Shown here in pieces: positions 5,765 to 47,200 of a stretch of DNA of 64,000 nt. Every line of letters begins with the position of its first letter. Position 1 is the stretch's first letter. The stretch is from NCBI GenBank assembly GCA_963965975.1, contig OZ014424.1:5228380-5292379 (forward strand), written 5' to 3'. The notes under the pieces were generated by a model that worked only from the letters and a program-made list of their open reading frames with translations, was not told where the DNA came from and ran no database searches. The translations under genes and the position numbers were made by a program. The stretch is from Xestospongia bergquistia (taxonomy: Eukaryota > Porifera > Demospongiae > Haplosclerida > Petrosiidae).

Positions 5765-5900
5765 CATGTTAATTAATTAATTATTATTATTATTATAGTT
5801 ATTAATTTTGGGAATGTATTGTTTGTGTATTAGATAGTTATTTTTAGTAATAAATTGACTAACTATCAAATACTGACTTGCCAAAAATTATTCAGTGCAC

Positions 5901-7194
5901 ACTAGAACAAGTGTCCTCAATATAGAGGTTGTATAATACACTAAAGTATTAGTATGGGACTAGAACAAGTGTCCTCAATATAGAGGTTGTATAATACACT
6001 AAAGTATTAGTATGGGACTAGAACAAGTGTCCTCAATATAGAGGTTGTATAATACACTAAAGTATTAGTATGGGACTAGAACAAGTGTCCTCAATATAGA
6101 GGTTGTATAATACACTAAAGTATTAGTATGGGACTAGAACAAGTGTCCTCAATATAGAGGTTGTATAATACACTAAAGTATTAGTATGGGACTAGAACAA
6201 GTGTCCTCAATATAGAGGTTGTATAATACACTAAAGTATTAGTATGGGGACTAGAACAAGTGTCCTCAATATAGAGGTTGTATAATACACTAAAGTATTA
6301 GTATGGGGACTAGAACAAGTGTCCTCAATATAGAGGTTGTATAATACACTAAAGTATTAGTATGGGACTAGAACAAGTGTCCTCAATATAGAGGTTGTAT
6401 AATACACTAAAGTATTAGTATGGGACTAGAACAAGTGTCCTCAATATAGAGGTTGTATAATACACTAAAGTATTAGTATGGGGACTAGAACAAGTGTCCT
6501 CAATATAGAGGTTGTATAATACACTAAAGTATTAGTATGGGACTAGAACAAGTGTCCTCAATATAGAGGTTGTATAATACACTAAAGTATTAGTATGGGA
6601 CTAGAACAAGTGTCCTCAATATAGAGGTTGTATAATACACTAAAGTATTAGTATGGGACTAGAACAAGTGTCCTCAATATAGAGGTTGTATAATACACTA
6701 AAGTATTAGTATGGGACTAGAACAAGTGTCCTCAATATAGAGGTTGTATAATACACTAAAGTATTAGTATGGGACTAGAACAAGTGTCCTCAATATAGAG
6801 GTTGTATAATACACTAAAGTATTAGTATGGGGACTAGAACAAGTGTCCTCAATATAGAGGTTGTATAATACACTAAAGTATTAGTATGGGGACTAGAACA
6901 AGTGTCCTCAATATAGAAGTTGTATAATACACTAAAGTATTAGTATGGGACTAGAACAAGTGTCCTCAATATAGAGGTTGTATAATACACTAAAGTATTA
7001 GTATTGGACTAGAACAAGTGTCCTCAATATAGAGGTTGTATAATACACTAAAGTATTAGTATGGGACTAGAACAAGTGTCCTCAATATAGAGGTTGTATA
7101 ATACACTAAAGTATTAGTATTGGACTAGAACAAGTGTCCTCAATATAGAGGTTGTATAATACACTAAAGTATTAGTATGGGACTAGAACAAGTG
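5901..7194. repeat. 58-bp tandem satellite, about 22 copies
   Basis: A unit beginning ACTAGAACAAGTGTCC is repeated head to tail with a 58-base period (59 where a fourth G is present in the GGG run). Copies are nearly identical; only isolated substitutions are visible (e.g. GAAGTT for GAGGTT near 6918, ATTGG for ATGGG near 7003). The final copy breaks off at about 7194. Each unit carries three small inverted repeats: GGAC...GTCC, CCTC-AATATA-GAGG and AATAC-ACTAAA-GTATT. The array starts 136 bases after the DOK-like stop codon, between two convergent genes, and could be partly transcribed in 3' UTRs. Confidence 0.95.
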
Positions 7195-7241
7195 TAGAGG
7201 TTGTCCTAATCCAATGTCTTTACATTGCAAGATCACAAGTA

Positions 7242-7245
<4 letters not shown>

Positions 7246-7281
<36 letters not shown>
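7246..7281. repeat. (TA)n microsatellite
   Basis: About 18 TA dinucleotides between the 58-bp satellite and the 3' end of NUP93. Confidence 0.9.
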
Positions 7282-7284
<3 letters not shown>

Positions 7285-7442
7285 ATACAAACAGCTATTG
7301 ACATGTAATAACATGTAAGTGAGCAGGTCAGCATGTCTCATTTTATAGTTTTCATTCAATTCTCAAGCAACTACACATAACAATAGCATTATTATTGCCA
7401 TGGTAACAAAAGGACAATTAGAATGTTAGTAACTATTAATAA

Positions 7443-11974
<4,532 letters not shown>

Positions 11975-12689
11975 AGTCACAAACCCGGCCTCTTTAAAAT
12001 CAGTGACCACACCCCAACTTAATTATTAATTATTTAGAGGTATGGCTCAATGTCTGTACTTTCAATACAAAATTTAAATTTGAAAATAAACACCTACATG
12101 GACACCTTCATATAACTAATATTGAACTGCTATTTCAGATGAGTTCTGATCCTCTTCAGTCTCAGACTGGTACTTATCCTCAGACTGATGCAACAGACAG
12201 ATCAGCAGTCCGAGACTGATGATACTCATCCTCAGACTTATATGTAGTTCTTCAGTCTCTGATTAATGCTGGTTGCATAATAAAATGTTATGACATTATA
12301 TCATTGGATTTTCATACAAGAAAATGATTTTATTACAAAAAAACTAACGAGATTATAACAAACTATTTTACTAGTATATATAAGTCCTTACAAAGTTAGT
12401 TTTTTTAAGGAAGTGGGATTAATTGACAGGTAGTTAACTACATAGGTCCTTGTTAAGTCATATTAGTAACTGCTCTCTAATGTTTTGTTAGATTTAAAAA
12501 AAAACACCCTTTGTTCTACTGGTACCTTTCTGCAGACAAACAATTGCTCTACTTAACAAGGGCCTGTATATTAGCTAAATTCAAAATATACAAGTAACAC
12601 AGCCTAGTTTTCCTTACATACCTTCCCAGTAGTTATTTAAGATTATAAAAAATAAAAACAATAATAAATAGATTAAAAATTAAAAAAAA

Positions 12690-13170
12690 AACCCTTGTGT
12701 GTTGCCCAAACGATTCCTACTCGCTCACCCACTCAGGCTTCCACTTAGGCTCCAGGATTCCCTGCTATTGCTAGCTGGGACCGCCACCTGGCTTGGTAAC
12801 CCTCGTCTTCGCGAGGTAATCCTGGCTGGAGCGTCGCCCTAACTTAAAACCAGCCGTACGGGATTCCAGCTCTTAGGGAATTTCGCATTCAGAAACCGGG
12901 AACCACAAATACACCAGCCTCATCTCGTTTAAAGGGAGACTACCAGCCCTATCCTAGTCGGCCTTTCGGATACTCCGTAGAGTATGCTGGTAACCATCTC
13001 AGAGGTCTGATGCATTGCAGAACGCTGGCCCACAACACACTGGCACTCATGATTGCTTTGGTTTCCTTATATATGTACTTACGATTTTGTCTTCAGGCTC
13101 TTGTGGGGCGCAGTGTGTACCGGCTATGAATCTCATTAACGCTGGCGACTCGAACATCGGTGAATTAAAA
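12690..13170 (-). other. GC-richer, hairpin-rich intergenic element, copy A
   Basis: This stretch of about 480 bases contrasts with its AT-rich surroundings. It has no long reading frame but many short perfect stems, for example CCTCG-TCTTCG-CGAGG near 12808 and ATACTC-CGTA-GAGTAT near 12968. On the minus strand it ends in a run of ten T residues at about 12680-12690, as an RNA polymerase III transcript or a retroposon tail might. I tested it mentally against 7SL, 7SK, RNase P, U2, U3 and rRNA sequences and found no match. It may be a SINE-like or LTR-derived element, or an unknown RNA gene. It lies between the NUP93 start and the end of the chimeric gene. Confidence 0.4.
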
Positions 13171-13319
13171 AGACTGGTTAATAATTAAGAGTGTATTCTT
13201 AATTCTATGCTCAATAATTTAATTTATCATAAAACAATAAATAAATAAGCTTCATAAATAACATTTTGTCTTAATATTTTAAAATATAACATCTAGCTAT
13301 AAGTTCAACAGGAGTACGA

Positions 13320-14359
13320 TCAGGTTCTCATCAATGTTTCTAATACTCTACTCTCCTCTGGAATAATCCCCAAATATCTTAACATTTTTAACCAAGTAAT
13401 TAAACACCATGATTTAAAAGACCACCACCTGAAATAAATAAATCTAATAGTAGTTCTTTTATAAAAGATATCTTTAATTTAAGATCTATATTAAAGACCT
13501 ACCATATTCTCAAGTCAAAACTTCTGAGGCCAATCCACATTTTAACGGAATAACTCCATGATTGAGACTGATGACTAGAGCAATGATGATAACCTTCTAT
13601 TGCTCTGAGGAAGGGGAGGAGGGAGTAAGAGAAGGACCAAGACAGAGATTAAAGTAGAAAGAAAGAAGGAAAAATATAATCAAGAGAACACCATTATATA
13701 TATTACTCAGCGTACATTCTTGCCATAATTGTAAATCTGTTCACAGGAGTCCCTAATTCTCGATTAATACTGCGCAATAAATTCATGTTTCTAAATAAAT
13801 GTATCATTACTAATTTTTGGACAGAATATCTATCAAAATTTGAACTCTTTACCTAAATACAAGCATCATTGAAGAGGGTAAAGTACGTAGTATTGATATT
13901 ACATCCTCCATACGATTATTAAATGTATCCTTTACTCGAAGTACATCTTGTCGAGTAAGTGCAGCTGAATTAAACATTCTACGATGAGTATCTAATGTAC
14001 GACCAGTAACTATTAATGCAAATAGTTCATGATCTAGAGAGATAGATAAAGGATGAATGAAAAAATAAATAAATACATGAATGAGTTGTAGTAACCTTCT
14101 ACTCCCAACTGTTTACAATAATGTTTTAAACTTTGTAAATCATGTTGGATTGTTGATTTCCACACACCACAGAATGCAAGTCTAGTTCTGAGATAGTAGT
14201 TAGTAATATAGGAGATCATCATTATAGACTTACTCTTCCTTTAATGGAGCATATAGACCGTGATCTAACAAACAAACTTCTACACCATTCAGAGGAGATT
14301 TACGAACTAAAACTGGAGAGGGAGAGAGAGAGAGAGAGAGAAAGAGAAAGGGAGGGAGG

Positions 14360-14398
<39 letters not shown>

Positions 14399-15846
14399 TT
14401 CTAAAAGATGAAATGATTTTAATTTACCATTTCCAGGATGAGGGTCACCATGAACAAAACCAGTAAAAAACAGCTGATAAGAAAAAGCCCTTGTAATTTT
14501 TTCCGCTACTTCAGCTAATGATAAACCCCTCTCTTTAAGAGAAGAAATATCTGTTGCTTGACAGCCATCTATCCATTCTGTAGTAAGTACTCTCTACATG
14601 AAAGAATTACATTCATCTATTAGCTCATGTATCAATCCATTTGTCTATTCATCCGTCCATTTGTCTATCCATCTGTCCATTTGTCTATTCATCTGTCCAT
14701 TAACATACTTTACTTGTATATTTCCAATAAGCTTCATTAGCACGATAAACCTATTATGAATGTGTAATGAATGAAAAGTCTAATACCCAAGGTCATTGTG
14801 GTAAGTACTGATGTTTAATAGTCTAGAACTTACTAATGGTAGCTATCCTAGGTCATTGTGGTAAGTACTGATATTTACTAGTCTAGAGCTTACTAATGGT
14901 AGCTATCCTAAGTCATTGTGGTAAGTACTGATGTTACTAATGGTAGCTATCCTAGGTCATTGTGGTAAGTACTGATGTTTAATAGTCTAGAGCTTACTAA
15001 TGGTAGCTTGCTAGTCTAGAGATTAGTAAGTACTGACATTACCTCTCTTGCATAGGCCATCTCTACAGAATCTAGAGCACTACGTCCCATCATGCTGAGA
15101 GGATCAGCTATTATTGTCTAGATTATAACAAAGTGTAGCAAAATATAATATTATGATATGCTTACTTCAGAATGTGTAGGTAACTCTATTGTATCTTGGT
15201 TACTGCCTAATAAGGAATTGAGGATTTTCTCTTTCTCTTCTTCCCAATTATTCTCCATACTCTGCCATTGACGTTGATCTGCTTCGTTAAAGGTCTGCAT
15301 GTGTGTGTGTTAGAGAGAGAGTTACAAGCAGATGTGTGTATATATGTACATTTTTCCTTGACTCTTCAATGACAGCTAACAATGTGTTTTCTCTCTCATT
15401 TCGTAAAAACCCCTACATTAATATGTCATATTAAGTATCATCGTTTGTTATAAACCTCAATGTCTGTCTCCCATACTGGTTCTATAGGCTCAAGAGTTTT
15501 TGCTGCATTAAGTGTCTCAATACGTTGAGATGATTTAGGCACATCAAATCCACGAGAGCCCAAAAGTATCGACCTACACAGGAAGAGATTGCATTCTAAT
15601 TAATGCACAGACACGTGTAGTTCACTAGTTATTTCTGTGCTTATGACATTTTATCATAACTTACGCTTTAACATCTGTATGATCTTCAGGAAGTCCCACA
15701 GTTGTTTTACTAAGCAAACGTTGACCTGCCTCTGCTATTTGTTGCAGGTTTCTTTTTACTCGTGGTAATTCTTCGTCTCCTCCAATATCAGCTGTCAATT
15801 GTTCAGCCTCTTGAAGGAGATTAGCTAATGTCTTTGCCTGAGACAT
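13320..15846 (-). CDS. Predicted NUP93::ADCK5 chimeric gene
   Basis: The duplication joins NUP93 exons 1-5 (15846-15665, 15573-15456, 15412-15350, 15294-15166, 15117-15043) to a fused exon at 14750-14709. That exon begins as NUP93 exon 6 (VYRANEA) and continues in the same frame as ADCK5 exon 6 (YWKYTSK). The ADCK5 exons follow: 14593-14428, 14312-14234, 14181-14096, 14033-13853, 13790-13707, 13604-13503, 13428-13320. All phases match and no stop interrupts the predicted 471 residues: NUP93 1-196 followed by ADCK5 256-530. It keeps the UbiB HGDPHPGN and LLDHG motifs but lacks the ADCK5 N-terminus, KxGQ motif and VAVK lysine, so it would not be a complete kinase. It inherits a full copy of the NUP93 upstream region. 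Transcription is not shown by the sequence; it may be a pseudogene or an assembly artefact. Confidence 0.72.
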
Positions 15847-18208
15847 AGTCACAAACCTGGCCTCTTTAAAATCAGTGGCCACACCCCAACTTAATTATTA
15901 ATTATTTAGAGGCATGGCTCAATGTCTGTACTTTTAATGCAAAATTTAAATTTGAAAATAAACACCTTCATATAACTAATATTGAACTGGTATTTCAGAT
16001 GGGTTTTGATCCTCTTCATTCTCAGACTGATGCAACAGACAGATCATCAGTCTGAGACTGATGATACTCATCCTCAGACTGATAATACTCATCCTCAGAC
16101 TTATTTGTAGTTCTTCAGTCTCTGACTAATGCTGGTTGCATAATAAAATGTTATGACATTATATCATTGGATTTTCATACAAGAAAAATGATTTTATTGC
16201 AAAAAAACGTATACAAACGTCGACAGAGAGATTATAACAAACTATTTTACTAGTATATAACTACATAGGTCCTTGTTAAGTTATATTAGTAACTGCTCTC
16301 TAATGTTTTGTTAGATTTTAAAAAAATTTAATAACATTCCTTGTTTTACTCTATACTGGAGAGAAGCCTTGTGCTAATAGAGAGAACAGCTGTAATATCT
16401 TGTCAGTCACAACTCAAGTGGATAAAGAGCAACATTAACTATACTATGACCGAGTTGACACAGCCTTGACTAGTTTTCCTTAGATACCTTCCCAGTAGTT
16501 ATTTAAGATTATAAAAAACAACAACAACAATAAATAGATTAAAAATTAAAAAAAAAACCCTTGGTGTTGCCCAAACGATTCCTACTCGCTCACCCACTCA
16601 GGCTTCCACTTAGGCTCCAGGATTCCCTGCTATTGCTAGCTGGGACCGCCACCTGGCTTGGTAACCCTCGTCTTCGCGAGGTAATCCTGGCTGGAGCATC
16701 GCCCTAACTTAAAACCAGCCGTACGGGATTCCAGCTCTTAGGGAATTTCGCATTCAGGAACCGGGAACTACAAATACACCAGCCTCATCTCGTTTAAAGG
16801 GAGACTACCAGCCCTATCCTAGTCGGCCTTTCGGATACTCCGTAGAGTATGCTGGTAACCATCTCAGAGGTCTGATGCATTGCAGAACGCTGGCCCACAA
16901 CACACTGGCACTCATGACTGTTTTGGTTTCCTTTTATATGTACTTACGATTTTGTATTCAGGCTCTTGTGGGGCGCGGTGTGTACCGGCTATGAATCTCA
17001 TTAATGCTTGTGACTGAGCACATCGGTGAACTAAAAAGACTGCTTAAATAATTAAGACTATATTATTAATTCTATACTCAATAATTTATTTTATCATAAA
17101 ACAATAAATAAATAAGCTTCATAAATAACATTTTGTCTTAATATTTTAAAATATAACATCTAGCTATAAGTTCAACAGGAGTACGATCAGGTTCTCATCA
17201 ATGTTTCTAATACTCTACTCTCCTCTGGAATAATCCCCAAATATCTTAACATTTTTAACCAAGTAATTAAACACCATGATTTAAAAGACCACCACCTGAA
17301 ATAAATAAATCTAATAGTAGTTCTCTTATTAAAGATATCTTTAATTTAAGATCTATATTAAAGACCTACCATATTCTCAAGTCAAAACTTCTGAGGCTAA
17401 TCCACATTTTAATGGAATAACTCCGTGATTGAGACTGATGACTAGAGCAATGATGATAACCTTCTATTGCTCTGAGGAAGGGGAGGAGGGAGAGAGATTA
17501 AAGTAGAAAGAAAGAAGGAAAAATATAATCAAGAGAACACCATTATATATATTACTCAGCGTACATTCTTGCCATAATTGTAAATCTGTTCACAGGAGTC
17601 CCTAATTCTCGATTAATACTGCGCAATAAATTCATGTTTCTAAATAAATGTGTCATTACTAATTTTTGGACAGAATATCTATCAAAATTTGAACTCTTTA
17701 CCTAAATACAAGCATCATTGAAGAGGGTAAAGTACGTAGTATTGATATTACATCCTCCATACGATTATTAAATGTATCCTTTACTCGAAGTACATCTTGT
17801 CGAGTAAGTGCAGCTGAATTAAACATTCTACGATGAGTATCTAATGTACGACCAGTAACTATTAATGCAAATAGTTCATGATCTAGAGAGATAGATAAAG
17901 GATGAATGAAAAAATAAATAAATACATGAATGAGTTGTAGTAACCTTCTACTCCCAACTGTTTACAATAATGTTTTAAACTTTGTAAATCATGTTGGATT
18001 GTTGATTTCCACACACCACAGAATGCAAGTCTAGTTCTGAGATAGTAGTTAGTAATATAGGAGATCATCATTATAGACTTACTCTTCCTTTAATGGAGCA
18101 TATAGACCGTGATCTAACAAACAAACTTCTACACCATTCAGAGGAGATTTACGAACTAAAACTGGAGAGGGAGAGAGAGAGAGAGAGAGAAAGAGAAAGG
18201 GAGGGAGG

Positions 18209-18247
<39 letters not shown>

Positions 18248-18579
18248 TTCTAAAAGATGAAATGATTTTAATTTACCATTTCCAGGATGAGGGTCACCAT
18301 GAACAAAACCAGTAAAAAACAGCTGATAAGAAAAAGCCCTTGTAATTTTTTCCGCTACTTCAGCTAATGATAAACCCCTCTCTTTAAGAGAAGAAATATC
18401 TGTTGCTTGACAGCCATCTATCCATTCTGTAGTAAGTACTCTCTACATGAAAGAATTACATTCATCTATTAGCTCATGTATCAATCCATTTGTCTATTCA
18501 TCCGTCCATTTGTCTATCCATCTGTCCATTTGTCTATTCATCTGTCCATTAACATACTTTACTTGTATATTTCCAATAA
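14731..18579. repeat. Segmental tandem duplication, block B (3,849 bp)
   Basis: Second copy of the block. It holds the NUP93 5' exons (14750-15846), the intergenic element and the 3' exons of the intact ADCK5 gene (17187-18558). It is 23 bases shorter than block A overall, through several indels near 16000-16560 and 17490. A one-step unequal exchange or template switch between an ADCK5 exon and a NUP93 exon, in an ancestor with the order ADCK5-NUP93, explains the arrangement. Confidence 0.93.
16550..17035 (-). other. GC-richer, hairpin-rich intergenic element, copy B
   Basis: Duplicate of the element at 12690-13170, carried along in block B. Most stems are preserved (CCTCG-TCTTCG-CGAGG, ATACTC-CGTA-GAGTAT). 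There are scattered substitutions, such as GCATCG for GCGTCG, and the right end differs (GACTGAGCACATCGG). It lies between the chimeric gene's start and the ADCK5 stop. Confidence 0.4.
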
Positions 18580-20047
18580 ACTTGTGGTACATGTACAAAT
18601 GGAAGATGACTTAATTGTCGAGCACATCGTTCCTGATTAATACCTTCATGTTCAAAATCTAACTCTTTTAACAAAGTCTCTTTGAGTTCCTTAAGAAAAG
18701 AATAAGTTATTAATAGACATAACAAATTATTAATAGACATAAATTATTAAAGGATATAACATATTATTAATAGACATAACAAGTTATTAATAGACATAAC
18801 AAATTATTAATAGACATAAATTATTAAAGGATATAACATATTATTAATAGACATAAATTATTAAAGGATATAACATCTTATTAATAGACATAACAAGTTA
18901 TTAATAGACATAACAAATTATTAATAGACATATCTAAATTAGGAGTAAATATGGTTGTATATAGAGCAACAAATTATACCACAAAATTATTCTCATTCAT
19001 GTGGTGAAATTTTAACTAGTAGGAGGAGCCCCTATTAATACAACTAATTATTACACAATCTTTAGTGTTTAAGTGTGTATGTTTGGTGGAGCTCTTAATC
19101 GAGTGGAGTTTATACTTACATCAAGTACCCACGAGAAAGTAAACCTGGGATGCATCCAAGCTATGATTCGTAACAAGATCTTTATCGTCCAAATATCGCC
19201 ATCATATCGATCTCTCAAGTCAATATACTGGACTTTAACAGCCACTGGTTTTCCCTCGTCAGTTTTAGCTTTATATACTTGGGCCAAGCTTGCTGCAGCT
19301 ACAGGCTGCCTGTTAAATTCAGTGAATATATCATTAGGAGTTTGTTGAAAGTCTTCCTTGAAAAGCATCTCCAACTGTTTAGGGGTGTGGCTTAAAGGGG
19401 AGTGGTCACATAGATACTGGACTTACTTCTTTCTCCTCTCGTACTAGTACCTAAAAATGGATTGTAACTTTGATAAATGGATTAATAAAGTAAAATGGAT
19501 TCATGGATATCATTTAAAAGGATACATAGGTAATTAAATGGACAGGTGTATATAAATGATGCATACCTTGTTAAGTAATACTTTTAATGTATCAATATAC
19601 TGACGAGGGAGAATTTGGTTAAAGGATCCCAAACCTTGTCCCAATTTTATGTACAGTCCACCATTTGCCATAGCTCCTGCAACAATGCGATCAGCTGCAC
19701 GCTGATGACAGGGTCCAACTATTTCATTATAATCCGGGTTATCCTGAAATATGAGGGGCGCGACTACTCAATCTTTATAAGACAATAAAAACTTACATCA
19801 TCAACTCCCCGTAATGTCCACCAGTAGTCAAGAGAAATAGTAATACCAACAGTTGCTGATCTGGAATTGTAAATAAATTTAAAGAGTATTGTTCATTGAG
19901 TTACAATTGGTACCTCAGAAATCGATTTATGCCACCTAAATGTACTCGCATCTTTCTTCTCGTGATATCATCCGATTTCCAATAATATGTGGCACTTCCA
20001 GTCGCTGATAGCAACAAAAGACCTCCCATGACTCCTCTTAATCGCAT
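17187..20047 (-). CDS. ADCK5: ADCK5-like atypical kinase (UbiB/ABC1 family)
   Basis: Thirteen exons: 20047-19914, 19860-19797, 19743-19567, 19450-19427, 19374-19120, 18689-18558, 18442-18277, 18161-18083, 18030-17945, 17882-17702, 17639-17556, 17471-17370, 17295-17187; 530 residues, all in phase (human ADCK5 is 580). Visible motifs: [12 protein letters not shown], the family KxGQ signature ([11 protein letters not shown], about residue 97), [18 protein letters not shown] with the ATP-site lysine at about 180, [17 protein letters not shown], catalytic HGDPHPGN (Asp about 312), LLDHGLY (about 334) and MLVFRNMN. The UbiB family acts on mitochondrial quinone and lipid metabolism; the exact role of ADCK5 is poorly known. 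The sequence follows ADCK5 rather than ADCK1 or COQ8. The exon starting 18030 needs the acceptor at CTAG|ACTTGC. An additional upstream exon coding a longer targeting peptide cannot be excluded. The gene is head to head with GMPR (123 bases). Confidence 0.92.
18700..18935. repeat. ATTAATAGACATAACAAATT-type minisatellite in an ADCK5 intron
   Basis: Direct repeats of TATTAATAGACATAACAA alternate with AAATTATTAAAGGATATAAC units across the intron between exons at 19120 and 18689. Confidence 0.85.
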
Positions 20048-22446: not shown

Positions 22447-22688
22447 TACATTTTAACTTTATCAAAACATCAGTTTAGTAAGAAAATGAACATTGATGTT
22501 TGACTGTTTTATTAATAAGAGAAATATTAAATTATCATGACAGCTCATCATGGGTAATTATAAGGCAGCGTCTAGACAGTTTTTTGGGAAAGGGTTGTTT
22601 TCATACATGCACATCCTGTTTAGACTGAAAGTTTACTATAATTATAGAAGTGATATTACGCAGGATTTTGTTGTAAAGTTGATTCTAA

Positions 22689-23018
22689 ATGGAAGAATTT
22701 GCTGAAGAACAACAAGTAGACATTCGAGGAGAACCAATTCTTTATGAAGCCACCTGCTCAACTGAAGAATATTCACGTTATTTGCAAAAACGTGAAATCT
22801 GTGCTATTTTAGAAATATTTTTTTTTATTTGCTTGATCTTACTTTTAATTGTCATCTTACCACTTTTGCTCCTACCTTTAGTGCTCTGTCTCTGTAGACG
22901 AAGAATCAAGTCAGTAGCTGAAAAAAGACTCAAAAAATGGCGTCTTTATGTTACCAATGAAAACATATACTATTCTACTCATGCACTAAATAATTATTGT
23001 ATAATTTTACTATGTTAA
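22689..23018 (+). CDS. Truncated paralog of the tandem membrane-protein family (copy 1)
   Basis: 109-residue frame. Residues 1-96 are nearly identical to copy 2 (MEEFAEEQQVD, RGEPILYEATCSTEEY, a hydrophobic segment of about 28 residues, CLCRRRIKSVAEKRL, KWRLYVTN). At about 22976 the sequence jumps from the shared YYS codons into what is 3' flanking DNA in copy 2 (compare 24382 onward). The C-terminal half is therefore deleted and replaced by a short unrelated tail. The TATAAAA found 40 bases before copy 2's ATG is altered here (TATAATTATAG). It is probably a dying gene, though it could still encode a one-pass membrane peptide. Confidence 0.6.
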   Translation: MEEFAEEQQVDIRGEPILYEATCSTEEYSRYLQKREICAILEIFFFICLILLLIVILPLLLLPLVLCLCRRRIKSVAEKRLKKWRLYVTNENIYYSTHALNNYCIILLC

Positions 23019-23435
23019 ATGTCATTATTAGTTTATTATAGTAATATGAAAACTTAGTAATTATTTGTCCCAAATACATGTCTAGGGACTCTACTCACTA
23101 TAGAGATAAAACTGTAACAATAATAACTTTAATTGTACTATGTCTGTATTGGGCGAATAGACTGGACTAGATCTATATAATAATATTTATCAGTGATTCC
23201 ACTAGAGTAAGTAGAATTTTCCCAACCACATACCAGTGAAATTCCTCTGTAATTAGTTAACCTTTGTACTTTGTACAACTCCCTAAAGTTTGACATCCCC
23301 CGAGCTAGAGCTATAAAATTTTAATAATAATAATAATTATTATTATAATTATATCACCCTCTGTAATTATTAATCACGTGTGTCATCTCCTGATTTTTAT
23401 GCCCCAAACGACTTCTGTGTAGTGTGTACGCATTC
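22977..23435. repeat. Flanking repeat of the membrane-protein array (first of three)
   Basis: The segment starting CTACTCATGCACTAAATAAT recurs at 24382-24845 and, shortened, at 26143-26440. It includes the shared blocks GTCCCAAATACATGTC, GACTGGACTAGATCTATA and CACGTGTGTCATCTCCTG. This shows that gene plus flank were duplicated together; no gene is seen inside it. Confidence 0.85.
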
Positions 23436-23527
23436 TTCATGGGTAATTATAAGGCAGTGTCTAGACAGTTTTTTGGGAAAGGGTTGTTTTCATACATGCA
23501 CATCCTGTTTAGACTAGAAGTTTACTA

Positions 23528-23534
23528 TATAAAA
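23528..23534 (+). promoter_or_regulatory. TATA box of membrane-protein copy 2
   Basis: TATAAAA 40 bases upstream of the ATG at 23574, in a flank shared with copy 1 where the same site is mutated. Confidence 0.55.
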
Positions 23535-23573
23535 GTGATATTACACAGGCTTTTGTTGTAAAGTTGATTCTAA

Positions 23574-24179
23574 ATGGAAGGATTTGCTGAAGAACAACAA
23601 GTAGACGTTCGAGGAGAACCAATTCTTTATGAAGCCACCTGCTCAACTGAAGAATATTCACGTTATTTGCAAAAACGTGAAATCTGTGCTATTTTAGAAA
23701 TATTTTTTCTTATTTGCTTGGCCTTAATTTTAATTGTCATCTTACCACTTTTGCTCCTGCCTTTAGTGCTCTGTCTCTGTAGACAAAGAATCAAGTCAGT
23801 AGCTGAAAAAAGACTCGAAAAATGGCGTCTTTATGTTACCAATAAAAACATATACTATTCCTATTTTCTCACTGGCTACAACAATTGGATCCGAGGAACC
23901 ATCACTTACGGTATTCCTCTAGCTAGTATTATATCAATACAAATCAAAGAAACCAGTGGTCTCAGTTGTTACACCTGTTGCACAGACAATTTGCCTGTAG
24001 TTGAAGTTGTAATGAAAAGGGGACACTATGCTAGACCAGTTGATAGACATTATATCCAACCTGCAGGTACGAGATTAGAAGACCTTTCCAGATCAATTGT
24101 ACTAATACTTGGTGTTGCCAGTCCACAGAGTTTTATTGATATTGTTCAAGGACAAATGATGAAGTTGAATTATAAATAA
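23574..24179 (+). CDS. Membrane protein with PH/GRAM-like cytosolic domain, tandem family copy 2
   Basis: Intronless, 201 residues. Order: a hydrophilic N-terminus with GEPILYEATCSTEEYSRYL; a strongly hydrophobic stretch at about 41-69 ending PLLLLPLVLCLCR, long enough for a hairpin or a single membrane span; then basic IKSVAEKRLEKWRLYVTNKNIYYSY and IPLASIISIQI. The latter resembles the beta-strand pattern of bacterial-type PH (bPH/DUF304) or GRAM domains, in which a 'renders visible T-x-x-x-I-x-Y' strand is followed by IPLxxIxxI. A small Cys cluster (SCYTCC) lies in the loop that is Cys-rich in copy 5. I do not recognise a named family; the PH-like assignment is a suggestion from pattern only. 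It belongs to a run of six related units at 22.6-27.6 kb. Confidence 0.8.
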   Translation: MEGFAEEQQVDVRGEPILYEATCSTEEYSRYLQKREICAILEIFFLICLALILIVILPLLLLPLVLCLCRQRIKSVAEKRLEKWRLYVTNKNIYYSYFLTGYNNWIRGTITYGIPLASIISIQIKETSGLSCYTCCTDNLPVVEVVMKRGHYARPVDRHYIQPAGTRLEDLSRSIVLILGVASPQSFIDIVQGQMMKLNYK

Positions 24180-24381
24180 TTGTAGAGAACACTCAGAACA
24201 GTTCCTTTTGTCTTGTTTTTTAAGTCATCAAAATGATTATAATATTTTGATAATTTTTTCATAGTCTTAGCATAATTTTGAATAAAGAATTCTTGTTGTT
24301 AATAGCTACACTACTACTAGTCATGTGATCTGACACCTCAATACTAGTAGTATGGAATAGATGATATTGTATCATGATTTC

Positions 24382-24845
24382 TACTCATGCATTAAATAAT
24401 TATTGTATAATTTTACTATGTTAAATGTCATTATTAGTTTATTATAGTAATATGAAAACTTAGTAATTATTTGTCCCAAATACATGTCTGTATAGTTAGG
24501 GATTCTACTCACTATAGAGACAGAACTGTAATAATAATAACTTTAATTGTACTATATCTGTATTGAGCGAATAGACTGGACTAGATCTATATAATAATAT
24601 TTATCAGTGATTCCACTAGAGTAAGTAGAATTTTCCCAACCACATACCAGTGAAATTCCTCTGTAATTAGTTAACCTTTGTACTTTGTACAACTCCCTAA
24701 AGTTTGACATCCCCCGAGCTAGAGCTATAAAATTTTAATAATAATAAAAATAATTATTATAATTATATCACCCTCTGTAAGTATTAATCACGTGTGTCAT
24801 CTCCTGATTTTTATGCCCCAAACGACTTCTGTGTAGTGTGTACGC
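24382..24845. repeat. Flanking repeat of the membrane-protein array (second of three)
   Basis: Near-identical to 22977-23435, here following the intact copy 2 and preceding degenerate copy 3. Confidence 0.85.
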
Positions 24846-24881
24846 ATTCTTTAATAATATACCTTGTAAGCTGCTTACCAC

Positions 24882-25330
24882 ATGGAAGGATTTGCTGATA
24901 TCGATGCGCAGCGAGTAGATTCGCAGGGAGAACCAATTCTTTACGAGGCAATTTGCCAGACTGAAGATTAATATACTCGATATTCAGTGAAATACTTACC
25001 TGTACTTTGATTGTGATTGTTGTTGCTTTTTGGATATTCATCATTCCACTTCTACTCCTACCTGTTATCATAAATCGTTGTAGGCCAAGATTAGAATCCA
25101 GTCAGAATCTCAAGAAGTAGTCAAATATTGTCGACTTTACATGACTGATAAATATATATATATATATACTACTCTTATTACTCTCGACTAAATGGTACTA
25201 CAATGGTTATACCTGTGGCTGATATTAATACCATAACAGTCAACGAACCATGTGGTGAGTATAGTGAATGTTGCAGATGTTTTTCCTATTCATGTATATT
25301 ATGTCTATGTGATATCGATGACGTAATCTT
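24882..25330 (+). pseudogene. Degenerate membrane-protein paralog (copy 3)
   Basis: Starts MEGFADIDAQRVDSQGEP like copy 5, but reaches a TAA at 24969-24971 after 29 codons. Remnants of the hydrophobic segment (ATTCCACTTCTACTCCTACC), of KYCRLYMTDKY and of the CGEYSECCRC-like Cys loop follow in shifted frames up to about 25330. Closest in sequence to copy 5 (26465). Confidence 0.8.
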
Positions 25331-25417
25331 TACTGTTTAACACCTATTTATATGTTTATGGTAGTTGCTGTTTGTAGTTTGTAATACATACGTCAATGAG
25401 AAATTAATGTTAAGTAT

Positions 25418-25950
25418 ATACCGAGAACAACAAGATGTTCAAGGAGAACCATTTCTTTCTGAAGCAACATATTTAACTGAAGAATATGCATGTTGTTTGG
25501 AAAAGCACAATCTCTTTGCATATACACAACTGCCTGGGTCTTGATTTCAATTATCTGGTTTTTGAAGTTCTTTTACTCCTATCTTTAATGCTATGTCTCT
25601 GTGGACGAGAAGTCAAGTCAGACACTAAAGAAACTCTCAATAAATGATGTCTTTATGTCACCAACACAAACTTATATTATTCTAATAATAATAGCAACAA
25701 CAATAATCATACTATATGTATGATTATTGTAGTATTCCTCTAGCTAGTATAATTAGATTGATACAAATCAGAGAAACCAGTGGTCTCAGTTGTAACTTGT
25801 AACTACACCTGTTGCACAGACAATTTGCCTATAGTTGAAGTTGTAATGAATAGGGGACAATATGCTAGACCAGTTAATAGGACTTATATCCAAGCTGCAT
25901 ACTGGTGTTGCCAATCTACAGAGTTTCATTGATGGACATTGAGTTATAAA
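25418..25950 (+). pseudogene. Degenerate membrane-protein paralog (copy 4)
   Basis: Contains recognisable pieces of copy 2: EQQDVQGEPFL, TEEYACCLEKHN, CLCGREVKSDT, then stops and frameshifts, and later IRETSGLS, CCTDNLPIVEVVM and ARPVNRTYIQAA. No ATG or continuous frame remains. The 3' flank matches that of copy 2. Confidence 0.8.
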
Positions 25951-26142
25951 TAATAGTAGGGAACACTCAGAACAGTTCCTTTTGTCTTGTTTTTTAAGTC
26001 ATCCAAATGATTATAATTTTTCATAGTCTTAGCATAATTTTGAATAAAGAATTCTTGTTGTTAATAGCTACACTACTACCAGTCATGTGATCTGACACCT
26101 CAATACTAGTAGTATGGAATAGATGATATTGTATCATGATTT

Positions 26143-26440
26143 CTACTCATGCATTAAATAATTATTGTATAATTTTACTATGTTAAATGTCATTATTAGT
26201 TTATTATAGTAATATGAAAACTTAGTAGTTATTTGTCCCAGATACACGTCTATGGATTCTACTTACTATAGAGACAGAGCTGTAACAATAATAACTTTAA
26301 TTGTACTATGTATTGAGCAGTTAGGTATTTCCTAATTGGGCATAGTCACGATTCCGCTTGAGTAAGTGCATACTAGTGGATTCCTTCATAATTAGTTAAC
26401 CTTTGTATAAAAGTTTGGCGTCGTCACCTACCTCGAATAT
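26143..26440. repeat. Flanking repeat of the membrane-protein array (third, shortened)
   Basis: Begins like 22977 and 24382 (CTACTCATGCATTAAATAAT...), keeps AACTTAGTAGTTATTTGTCC, then diverges before the promoter of copy 5. Confidence 0.75.
26406..26412 (+). promoter_or_regulatory. TATA box of membrane-protein copy 5
   Basis: TATAAAA 53 bases upstream of the ATG at 26465, at a position comparable to the TATA box of copy 2. Confidence 0.55.
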
Positions 26441-26464
26441 ATCTCGTAATCGTAGATACCACAT

Positions 26465-27061
26465 ATGGAAGGATTTGCTGAAGCACAGCGAGTAGATTCG
26501 CGGGGAGAACCAATTCTTTATGAGGGAACGTGCCAGACTGAAGAATATGCTCTATATTTAAGAAAGCTTTTTACCTGTGGTTTGATTGGAATCTTTATTG
26601 CTTTTTGGATATTCATCATTCCACTTCTACTCCTGCCAATTATCTTATATCTCTGCAAGCCAAAAATCGAGTCAGTATCTCAAGAAGCAGTCAAATATTG
26701 GCGACTTTACATGACTGATAAACATATATACTACTCTTATTACTCTCGACCAAATGGTACTACAATGGTTATTCCTCTGGAAGACATCAAGTCCATAACT
26801 TTCAATGATCCATGTGGTGACTGTGAGTGTTGCAGATGTTGTTCCTGTTGCTGTGCGTCATGTACACCGGATTACATTAACATAATTCGAATCAGTATGA
26901 AATTTGGGAAATATGGGAGATCAGTTAACCGCTATCACTACACCTCAAATGTGCAAATACCAGGTGCTGCTAATGCAGAGAGTTTCGTTGAGGCTGCACT
27001 AGGGCAAATGGCCAGGTTGGGAAATCCTCAGTATAAACATCCTGCAGATTTGAACCTTTAA
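26465..27061 (+). CDS. Membrane protein with PH/GRAM-like domain and extreme Cys cluster (copy 5)
   Basis: Intronless, 198 residues, same plan as copy 2: MEGFAEAQRVDSRGEPILYE, hydrophobic segment at about 42-66 (FIAFWIFIIPLLLLPIILYL), then KYWRLYMTDKHIYYSYYS and MVIPLEDIKSITF. It differs in a loop at about 118-135 where ten of some seventeen residues are cysteine (CGDCECCRCCSCCCASC). Such a cluster in a cytosol-facing or membrane-proximal loop suggests palmitoylation or metal binding; nothing in the sequence decides between them. The C-terminus (NIIRISMKFGKYGRSVNRYH, then AESFVEAALGQMARL) aligns with copy 2. The family is not one I can name. Confidence 0.8.
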   Translation: MEGFAEAQRVDSRGEPILYEGTCQTEEYALYLRKLFTCGLIGIFIAFWIFIIPLLLLPIILYLCKPKIESVSQEAVKYWRLYMTDKHIYYSYYSRPNGTTMVIPLEDIKSITFNDPCGDCECCRCCSCCCASCTPDYINIIRISMKFGKYGRSVNRYHYTSNVQIPGAANAESFVEAALGQMARLGNPQYKHPADLNL

Positions 27062-27076
27062 ACCATCTGTATAATT

Positions 27077-27107
<31 letters not shown>

Positions 27108-27282
27108 GGCATATTTTGTAACGTTTTTTAAGATAATATTGTACAACCAGCCAGTAAGAACATACACCAATATGTCTATTATTTTCTTAAAGTTGCTAGC
27201 ATTCCATTCATATATGTTAATAGTAGTTGCTGTTTGTACTTTGTAATACATACTTCAAATTCAATGAGAAATTAATGTTAAG

Positions 27283-27560
27283 AATTTGCTAAGAACAACA
27301 AGATGCTCAAGAAGAACCAATTCTTTATGAAGCAACATATTTAACTGAAGAATACACATGTCATTTGGAAAAACACAATCTCTTAGAATACGCAGCTGCC
27401 TGGGTCTTGATTTCAATTATCTGTTTTTTGAAGTCCTTTTACTCCTATCTTCCAATGCTATATCTCTTTGGACAAGAAGTCAGTCAGACACTAAAGAAAC
27501 TCTCAAGAAATAATGTCTATATCACCAACATAAAACTTATATTCTAATAGCAACGATAAT
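27283..27560 (+). pseudogene. Degenerate membrane-protein paralog (copy 6)
   Basis: Sequence beginning CTAAGAACAACAAGATGCTC shows the remnant EEPILYEATYLTEEYTCHLEK, hydrophobic remnants and then stops. It is closest to copy 4, which has the same TYLTEEY variant. A 60-codon frame at 27365 is a fragment of this, not a gene. Confidence 0.75.
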
Positions 27561-44225: not shown

Positions 44226-47200
44226 CTAAAGTTGATGACTTGTTTGTAATAATTGTCTTATCGTGTCTAGTCCATCAAGTTTTATTGTAAGGAATCCAAT
44301 GATCTCATCATTATTAGTAACACTGTGAACTACAGGAGAAGCTGAATTAATTTACTTACAATTCATAACTCACCATCTTCATCTAATAAAGCATCTTCTC
44401 CACCTTCTTGAACAATCTATAAAATGTTACAGGTATGTACCAGATAACAGACTAATACAGTCTACAAGACACAGTAGTTATTAGTAATAACTCAGGCAGA
44501 CATCTACTCTAAATGCTATAGGTATACTAGTTGTAGACACACTTCTTTGATGCTTGTCTCTGTAGACGCAAGAAAGAAGATGGTCTGTGCTTAGGACAAC
44601 ACACAACACCACTTCACAGGTGATTGCTATGAAGGAACCATTTCCCTCTATGCATGATTAATGTATTAATATTTGCTTTATTCTAAAATCAGCCTCCAGA
44701 GGAGGCCAACAAAAAATTATTTAAGACTCATCATTTGTCCTCCCCCACGGAAATCTTTAGTAAAAGGCGAAAGATTTATGCGATCTGAGGGAAGACCAGA
44801 GTTACCTCAAACACAAATTTCTGTGAATTATATAGTCCTTGAGGTAACTAGGAACTTGTGGGGCTCTTTATTTATAACCATATTCATAATTGACCACAAA
44901 AAGGTGTCATATTGACAAGTTGTTGCTATGGTTTCTTGCAACAATAACTAATTATTGATTATTATTACCTCTCTAAGATTGATCTTTGTTACTCCTAACT
45001 CCACACACTCCACATTATCTGTGTCTCCTTCAGGATCACTCACTATGGTCACTGGAATACTAACAGAACCACAATAGAATTCATTTATACTCATTAACCC
45101 AAACATTCATCCTATAAACCTCCATTCATTTAAACTTACCAGTGGTCAGTATTATGATTGTCTTGTAACAAAGCTTTTAGCAGTTCCATTGTGTTCGAGT
45201 GCAGATGAGAATGGATATAAAAATCTATAACATAACGCAAGCAGCATATTGCTAGCAGTATCTAAAAACAGTAGAGTGTATTAACCTTTCTTGAAGTTAA
45301 AGATAATAGGATGTCCAGGAGTAGTTTTTGGCAGTGATAGAGGCGTTTCCAGCTCACTGCTGTCATAATCTAAAAACTGATATTCTATAAATATTTGAGT
45401 GACTGATTTATCTCTGGCTAAACTACTGTCCTCCTCGACAGTAAATGAAACAATGGTCAGAGAGAAATTAATCTGAGAGGAATAGAATAAAGCATGCTAT
45501 CAAGTTTCCTTATCTCACCTCTATCTCTTTTTCTGATGGTATAGTTTTGTTTACTAGTGGTGGTAAAATCTTGTGGTTATTTTTTTGACCTATTGGTTGT
45601 TCATCATCTTCAGACATTAAATCTAAAGAGTCTCCTAAACTATCTTCGTCTGTGTCCTCTTGAGGTCGGAGAATCACTGAGGGTTTATTTGGCGAGGGAG
45701 AGGGTGAAGGAAAGGGAGAAGAAGGGAGAGGTCCTGAAAGAAACTCATAGTAAGATCAAATGAATTGTACAGTTATCTACCTTCAGATTGTAAAGTGTCT
45801 TCAAACATCGTGTCTTCAGACAATTCAGTCAAATCTTCTTCAAACTCTTCTTCACTAAGTTCAGAATCTTGGCGGTCATGACGTGAACTTTCCTCTCCAA
45901 TGGTTGCTATGGAAACCACATGAGGATCAGGAAGAGGACCTGCTACATCAGTTAACGAAGCATCCTCCATTTTGGCATCAAACAACAAAGGAGGAGAACC
46001 AACATTAGGTGTACCATTTTCTCCATTACTACTTTGGATATCTTCTTTGCTTTCTTTCACACTAATAGTACTGGTAACAGATGGTATAGGAAATACTCCT
46101 GTTGTACTGATTGGAATAGGTGTACTAGTGTCTTGTGGGGGACTACTTTGTAATGGACCTTCTGGTTTTTGTAAGTGAGTCATGTGACGAGGAGTTTCTT
46201 GTGGAGGACTCCTTTGTAATAGAGGTACTGGCTTTTGTAAGTGAGTCATGTGACGAGGAGTTTCTTGTGGAGGACTACTTTGTAATAGAGGTACTGGCTT
46301 TTGTAAGTGAGTCATGTGACGAGGAGTTTCTTGTGGAGGACTACTTTTTAATGGACCTGCTGGTTGTGTGGTGATGCGATGAGGGGTACTAGAATCAAGT
46401 GTGGTAGTTTGTAATTCCATTCTTTTAGTGCTATAAGCTAACTCTTTCAATTGAGATTCTAATTTCTAAGTAGAAGAATTAAAAATCATCAAATCCTATA
46501 GCACAGCTGTTAATAATGATACAAAAACTAACTTAGCCTATTACAGTATTGTGATGTATCTCTATCTAATTAGCTAACTGACTTATACCTTAATTCTTGT
46601 TGACTTCATCTCTAGTAACTGTGTTTTTTCATGTAATCTCATCTCATAATCTTCTTTCATTCTGTTTATTTCACTTCTTGTCATTTCTAATTCTTTCTTA
46701 CAGTCACGAGATATAGCACTTTGAAGGGACAGTAATTTCTTTGTCTTGTCCAATTCACTTGTTGTCTCTGCATAAGCTAAACGAAGATCTTGTACTTCCT
46801 GACTTGAGTCTTCTGTGATAGTGTGTGCGTGTATCAATAAATGTATTAATGAGTAAAGAAATAGACAGACAGACAGACAGACAGACACTAACCTATGACT
46901 GTATGTATTATAGGTGGTCTTTCAATGGCTGTCATATTTGTAGGTTGTAATAAATGATCATTTTCTTTCTTAGACTAGTACAACAATTTAATTGTTAAAG
47001 ATATATTTACAAAAACTTACTTTTAGAAAACTGAGAGCTTCTTCAAGTTCTGTCCAATCTATTTGCGGTGATCCCTGCAGAGAAGTGTATTAATGTGTGT
47101 ATCATTAAGAGATGTACCTTTTCATTTTGGCCTAATTTTTGAAGCAAGTTTTTGTGTTCATTTTGCAGTTTTATGTGATGACCTTTGACCTCCGATAGTT

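Follow-up and report, generated by a model that had tools for sequence, protein, structure and literature searches.

Does the genome of the sponge Xestospongia bergquistia carry a genuine chimeric gene made from parts of NUP93 and ADCK5, and does its intact reading frame mean that selection maintains it? The question is raised by a stretch of 64 kb (the window) on contig C14 (5.86 Mb) of a genome of 146.46 Mb in 21 contigs, for which a first-pass annotation had described an in-frame NUP93::ADCK5 fusion created by a tandem duplication. The analysis presented here indicates that the predicted chimera is most likely of a well-known kind, probably real, young and incidental. What the annotation observed in the sequence stands, its functional inference is not supported, and its finding mentioned neither false haplotype duplication nor gene conversion.

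Results

A duplicated block joins NUP93 to ADCK5

On the minus strand the window holds, in this order, intact ADCK5 (20047–17187), the predicted fusion gene (15846–13320) and NUP93 (11974–7443). A block of about 3.85 kb is present as two head-to-tail copies, forming a direct repeat (10858–14734 against 14730–18583) with an identity of 93.9%, gaps counted. The copy number of the block is exactly two. The features on which the argument rests are the following:

10858–14729, no strand assigned: duplicated block, copy A, with the 5' portion of the intact NUP93 gene, the region upstream of it and the 3' half of ADCK5 that went into the fusion
14730–18578, no strand assigned: duplicated block, copy B, with the 5' portion of NUP93 that went into the fusion, the region upstream of it and the 3' half of the intact ADCK5 gene
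13320–15846, minus strand: predicted chimeric gene, NUP93 (exons 1–5 and start of exon 6)::ADCK5 (end of exon 6, exons 7–13), 13 exons, 470 amino acids
14729–14731, no strand assigned: joint between the copies, flanked by NUP93 exon 6 and ADCK5 exon 6, with a microhomology of 1 nt
14709–14750, minus strand: fused 42-nt exon, VYRANEA|YWKYTSK, preceded by AG and followed by GT
17187–20047, minus strand: intact ADCK5, 13 exons, open spliced model of 529 amino acids, first exon predicted only
7443–11974, minus strand: NUP93 without the joint, from exon-by-exon matches, stop position read from the sequence

The ends of the block fall in two genes on the same strand, the copies are direct, and both NUP93 and ADCK5 still stand beside the fusion, which is the arrangement of a chimera formed by tandem duplication. 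The occurrence of the tandem duplication exceeds chance. The joint lies at 14729/14730 or 14730/14731; the ambiguity of 1 nt is the microhomology itself, as the fused sequence follows the NUP93 side through GAAGCT and the ADCK5 side from TTATTGG, with exactly 1 nt in common. It contains neither inserted sequence nor undetermined bases (N), and there is no N anywhere in the window. Within this ambiguity the earlier placement of the joint between the two sixth exons at 14730/14731, and the tandem duplication behind it, are confirmed, and so is the in-frame fused exon with its AG and GT borders.

The in-frame joint is expected by chance

The first-pass annotation had itself stated that one of three frames would be open at the joint by chance. 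We simulated 100,000 random pairs of breakpoints, one in the first six NUP93 exons and their introns (the end of exon 6 being approximate) and one in the modelled ADCK5 gene. Among the exon–exon joints 10,300 of 30,717 (33.5%) were in frame, among the intron–intron joints 10,879 of 19,892, and the in-frame share of all simulated breakpoints was about 21%, with 49,391 mixed joints not scored for frame. An in-frame joint is thus expected by chance and not surprising, and the idea that it is improbable was rejected.

The predicted protein lacks the N-lobe of the kinase

Thirteen exons with AG/GT borders form one open frame of 470 residues. All exons are open with the borders and coordinates given previously, and the previous length of 471 residues differs only trivially. 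With AG/GT sites allowed to lie up to 8 nt from the expected borders, 48 combinations were open, and the model was picked from them by eye for its best agreement with related proteins, human ADCK5 among them; an alternative exon-11 donor at 13707 leads to 473 residues.

Both halves were correctly named. The NUP93 half matches human NUP93 (PDB) with an E value of 2.3e-54 over human residues 7–195 of 819, and the ADCK5 half matches the Pfam profile ABC1 at positions 134–242 of 244, as compared with 4–242 in intact ADCK5. No match to PF04097, the C-terminal alpha-solenoid of NUP93, was obtained in the fusion at E <= 0.001. According to the literature, the N-terminal region of NUP93 is for the most part an unstructured linker that carries sites for scaffold binding, and in the homologue Nic96 the corresponding region holds the channel-nup trimer in position (PMC13242641). 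The fusion is like NUP93 and Nic96 in this linker region, but it differs from them in lacking the C-terminal solenoid scaffold.

The annotation spoke of half of a UbiB-type kinase. This is correct, but the retained half is devoid of the N-lobe motifs. Like the atypical kinases of the UbiB/ADCK family, to which ADCK5 belongs, the fusion has a C-lobe with the catalytic loop HGDPHPGN (position 251) and the metal-binding LLDHG (273). In intact ADCK5, however, KLGQ (99), AAASLAQV (159), VAVK (177) and ELDFEHE (227) all precede the joint at residue 256; by our own assignment they represent the KxGQ motif, the Ala-rich loop, the ATP-site lysine and the ExD motif, and the fusion has lost all of them. 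In ADCK3 these elements belong to the N-terminal extension, the N-lobe (ExD lying in an N-lobe insert) and the ATP site of the UbiB fold (PMC4718504). Because of their loss the predicted product is unlikely to be a working kinase, while a role as a fragment that titrates binding partners is conceivable.

The coding sequence bears no sign of constraint

In their genic arms copies A and B show only 8 differences over 2509 aligned sites. The differences amount to 2/1117 in the NUP93 arm, 5/285 in the final two ADCK5 exons and the intron that separates them, and 1/1107 plus an 18-nt indel in the rest of the ADCK5 arm. Copy against copy, there are 5 differences in 1413 coding sites and 3 in 1096 intron sites (Fisher p = 1.0), and the coding changes comprise five non-synonymous and no synonymous ones. 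They affect NUP93 codons 31 and 136 and, within ten codons of each other, three sites in ADCK5 exon 12. Comparison with 11 relatives per gene was informative for the polarity of one change only. NUP93 codon 31 encodes the parental R in P0001 and P0004, the two nearest relatives, whereas the K of the fusion occurs in 0 of 11, so that this change can be assigned to the fusion side with fair confidence. At ADCK5 residue 480 the parental I is present in the two sponge-like relatives and the position is variable in others; the remaining three sites are too variable among relatives to be polarised.

Nothing in these comparisons points to constraint on the fusion, five events being a weak test. Since coding sequence differs as often as introns do and every coding change alters the protein, the open frames reflect youth or homogenisation rather than constraint, and the open frame was rejected as evidence of selection. 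The argument from thirteen open exons against long neutral decay is correct but uninformative: the changes in the genic arms are so few that broken frames need not be expected. The coding comparison with the parental copies that had been proposed as a check is the one given above; it yielded no support for constraint, with few events and low power.

Divergence is uneven along the block

Along the block, divergence follows a U-shaped course, with near-identical arms and about 4% divergence plus many indels in the unique DNA between them; the copy–copy alignment contains 13 indels. Two stretches of 521 bp (10858–11378) and 926 bp (13804–14729) have no difference at all; an array of a 60-bp satellite and a microsatellite of the GA type lie within them. 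The satellite is located in NUP93 intron 5 (10920–11120 and 14790–15000). A query containing it gave 269 matches in the genome, and of 37 loci among the matches listed, this locus excluded, 22 are less than 1 Mb away from a chromosome end, as compared with 20.5% expected; many of the loci are clustered.

The middle of the block consists of the regions upstream of the two NUP93 start regions:

11975–13319, no strand assigned: NUP93 upstream region, copy A, compared with copy B
15847–17186, no strand assigned: fusion upstream region (copy B), a candidate copied promoter, diverged from copy A in the alignment

In the unique upstream part (11975–12495) 18 of 435 sites differ and 123 columns are gaps; in the 200 bp directly before the ATG there are 8 substitutions (171 sites aligned), and 29 columns are gaps. 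The annotation had the fusion driven by a copied NUP93 promoter; this is one of its weak points, since the copied 5' region belongs to the most altered parts. Next comes a replaced stretch, 12496–12605 as against about 16319–16471, where the copies are unlike at the same place (54 of 110 sites differ as aligned). Part of the version in copy A (12527–12586) recurs on contig C10 (82%, E 5.5e-7), where one of the copies of the dispersed repeat described below is some 380 bp away, which hints that copy B carries an altered version. Nucleotides 16387–16432 of copy B were found at two other places.

The remainder is largely a dispersed repeat (12606–13200 and 16472–17067, core 12675–13141) that is GC-richer (core 0.50) and differs at 23 of 594 sites, followed by 13201–13319 with 2 of 119. 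It has no Rfam match at the gathering threshold. In the genome itself 447 first-look candidates were obtained, of which the best 40 were scored and 8 short matches were left out. These best 40 comprise the two at this locus and 38 others at 90–98% identity, and for all 40 long matches a chromosome end is less than 1 Mb away, as compared with 20.5% expected; the repeat is subtelomere-associated. It cannot serve as a clock because its identity to copies elsewhere in the genome, on other chromosomes, reaches 98%, an excuse that the unique part does not have. The introns (3/1096) and the unique upstream part (18/435) differ significantly (p = 6e-8), which implies that the arms underwent gene conversion, that the source alleles were two unlike ones or that a haplotype was falsely duplicated.

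Relatives of the chimera and its parents

Exon-by-exon tblastn covered 810 of the 816 residues of the closest NUP93 relative, P0001, and 521 of 554 residues of P0003 for ADCK5. Among the matches listed, NUP93 is 82% identical to P0001, the best match, and 67% and 60% identical to the Ephydatia and Amphimedon proteins, respectively; the corresponding values for ADCK5 are 58% and 69%, and these sponges are the source of the best matches with a named organism. The Ephydatia muelleri relatives are Em0018g117a and Em0018g364a, names which suggest genes on one scaffold that are not adjacent, so that the head-to-tail neighbourhood may not be shared.

The fusion protein was searched against 8000 scored candidates of 0.55–1.75 times its length. 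There were 260 matches, and the 120 listed include no chimeric protein: 63 of them align with the NUP93 half and 57 with the ADCK5 half, but none with the two together; the power of this result is low, as the parents of this very species are also absent. Of 23 matches to the fusion protein in the genome itself 22 are at this locus. The remaining one, on contig C8, is 42% identical to the ADCK5 half and presumably represents another ABC1-type gene; further copies of either parent were not found in this search.

Other features of the window

A 58-bp satellite array is located just downstream of NUP93 (5785–7307). The only Rfam match in the window is a U5 spliceosomal RNA gene at 44691–44804 on the minus strand (RF00020, 101 bits).

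Discussion

Chimeras that arise via tandem duplication are an ordinary mutational product. In 15 lines of Drosophila yakuba 76 chimeric genes of this origin were described, at a frequency below that of whole-gene duplications (PMC5460883). As in D. yakuba and D. simulans (PMC5460883, PMC4503668), the duplication reported here ignored gene borders, united a 5' with a 3' end, left the parents in place and copied the 5' region. It differs from the Drosophila cases in that the joint is of the exon–exon type inside a 42-nt exon, in that the genes are NUP93 and ADCK5 of a sponge, and in that it is known from the genome sequence alone. Among 8 listed titles out of 14 papers retrieved in one literature search there was no such chimera from a sponge, and a search for papers that combine NUP93, ADCK5 and a fusion gave 0.

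The structure, the joint, the frame, the splice-site dinucleotides, the parents and the near-identical genic arms can be read directly from the sequence. They are probably best accounted for by a real and young tandem duplication that was end-joined, kept both parents and produced the chimera incidentally. According to this model, a block of about 3.85 kb would have broken inside exon 6 of the upstream ADCK5 and exon 6 of the downstream NUP93 of a head-to-tail pair and been repeated via end-joining with 1 nt of microhomology. Both parents would have been retained, and the second NUP93 start region would run into the second ADCK5 end. Transcription of the predicted gene may start in the copied region upstream of NUP93, and in the product the N-terminal linker of NUP93 would precede a kinase C-lobe that lacks its N-lobe. 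Such a fusion would be an incidental product with next to no effect on fitness, or a mildly harmful one in case it is expressed. That the arms diverge so little as compared with about 4% between them calls for either conversion of the arms after duplication or unequal exchange between different alleles. The model is favoured by the equal divergence of coding sequence and introns, by the fusion-side change at NUP93 codon 31 and by the share of in-frame chimeras among random breakpoints. We also count in favour of this model the nested tandem duplications (76–96% identity) at 22545–27549, which make this a duplication-prone stretch; two open reading frames within it (23574–24179 and 26456–27061) encode similar proteins of about 200 amino acids with hydrophobic stretches.

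Two points weigh against the model of a real and young duplication. The uneven divergence (introns versus unique upstream part) cannot easily be explained by a single recent copying without later exchange, and a false haplotype duplication would give much the same sequence pattern.

The first point leads to an alternative that overlaps with our model and that we regard as possible, if rather doubtful: the duplication may be older than its arms suggest, and conversion from the intact parents may overwrite the halves of the fusion and thereby keep its frame open without selection. The two difference-free stretches, with satellite and GA repeat included, beside a diverged unique upstream part and 13 indels are in line with this, and conversion would be expected to work least well in the interrupted middle. 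With two copies only and no outgroup at the locus, however, conversion looks the same as unequal exchange between alleles.

Somewhat less probable still is an assembly artefact in which two haplotypes of one locus were joined head to tail, creating a false chimeric gene. Such false heterotype duplications are a documented source of "false chimeric gains", mostly with a gap between the copies (PMC9516828). Our locus is like them in that exactly two copies, resembling alleles, lie next to each other and the gene model is chimeric, and its mosaic divergence (0.1–0.2% in the genic arms, about 4% plus indels between) resembles that of two alleles with different local histories. It differs from them in that there is no gap or N at the joint. 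As the joining of non-overlapping contig ends would normally leave a gap, the seamless joint lowers the probability of an artefact but does not remove it.

That the chimera is a functional new gene kept by selection is very unlikely, given the absence of any sign of constraint, the loss of all four kinase motifs and, with little power, the lack of a chimeric protein among the matches listed, even if the open frame and splice borders are complete, most of the NUP93 linker region with its scaffold-binding sites (PMC13242641) is retained and tandem-duplication chimeras often alter expression (24 of 76 in D. yakuba; PMC5460883); in that case the linker would send the kinase C-lobe to the nuclear pore or titrate NUP93 partners. 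The more specific version, in which the chimera is expressed and selected, docks its UbiB C-lobe on the inner ring of the pore or competes for NUP93 partners, and shows early adaptation in its amino-acid changes, is if anything more remote.

If the duplication is false, the locus is a warning that good assemblies can contain seamless fake fusion genes. If the joint is real, a chimeric gene has been caught young, with its exact exon–exon breakpoint, in an early-branching animal lineage, and it would offer a clean system to ask whether conversion by the parental genes keeps a young chimera open without selection.
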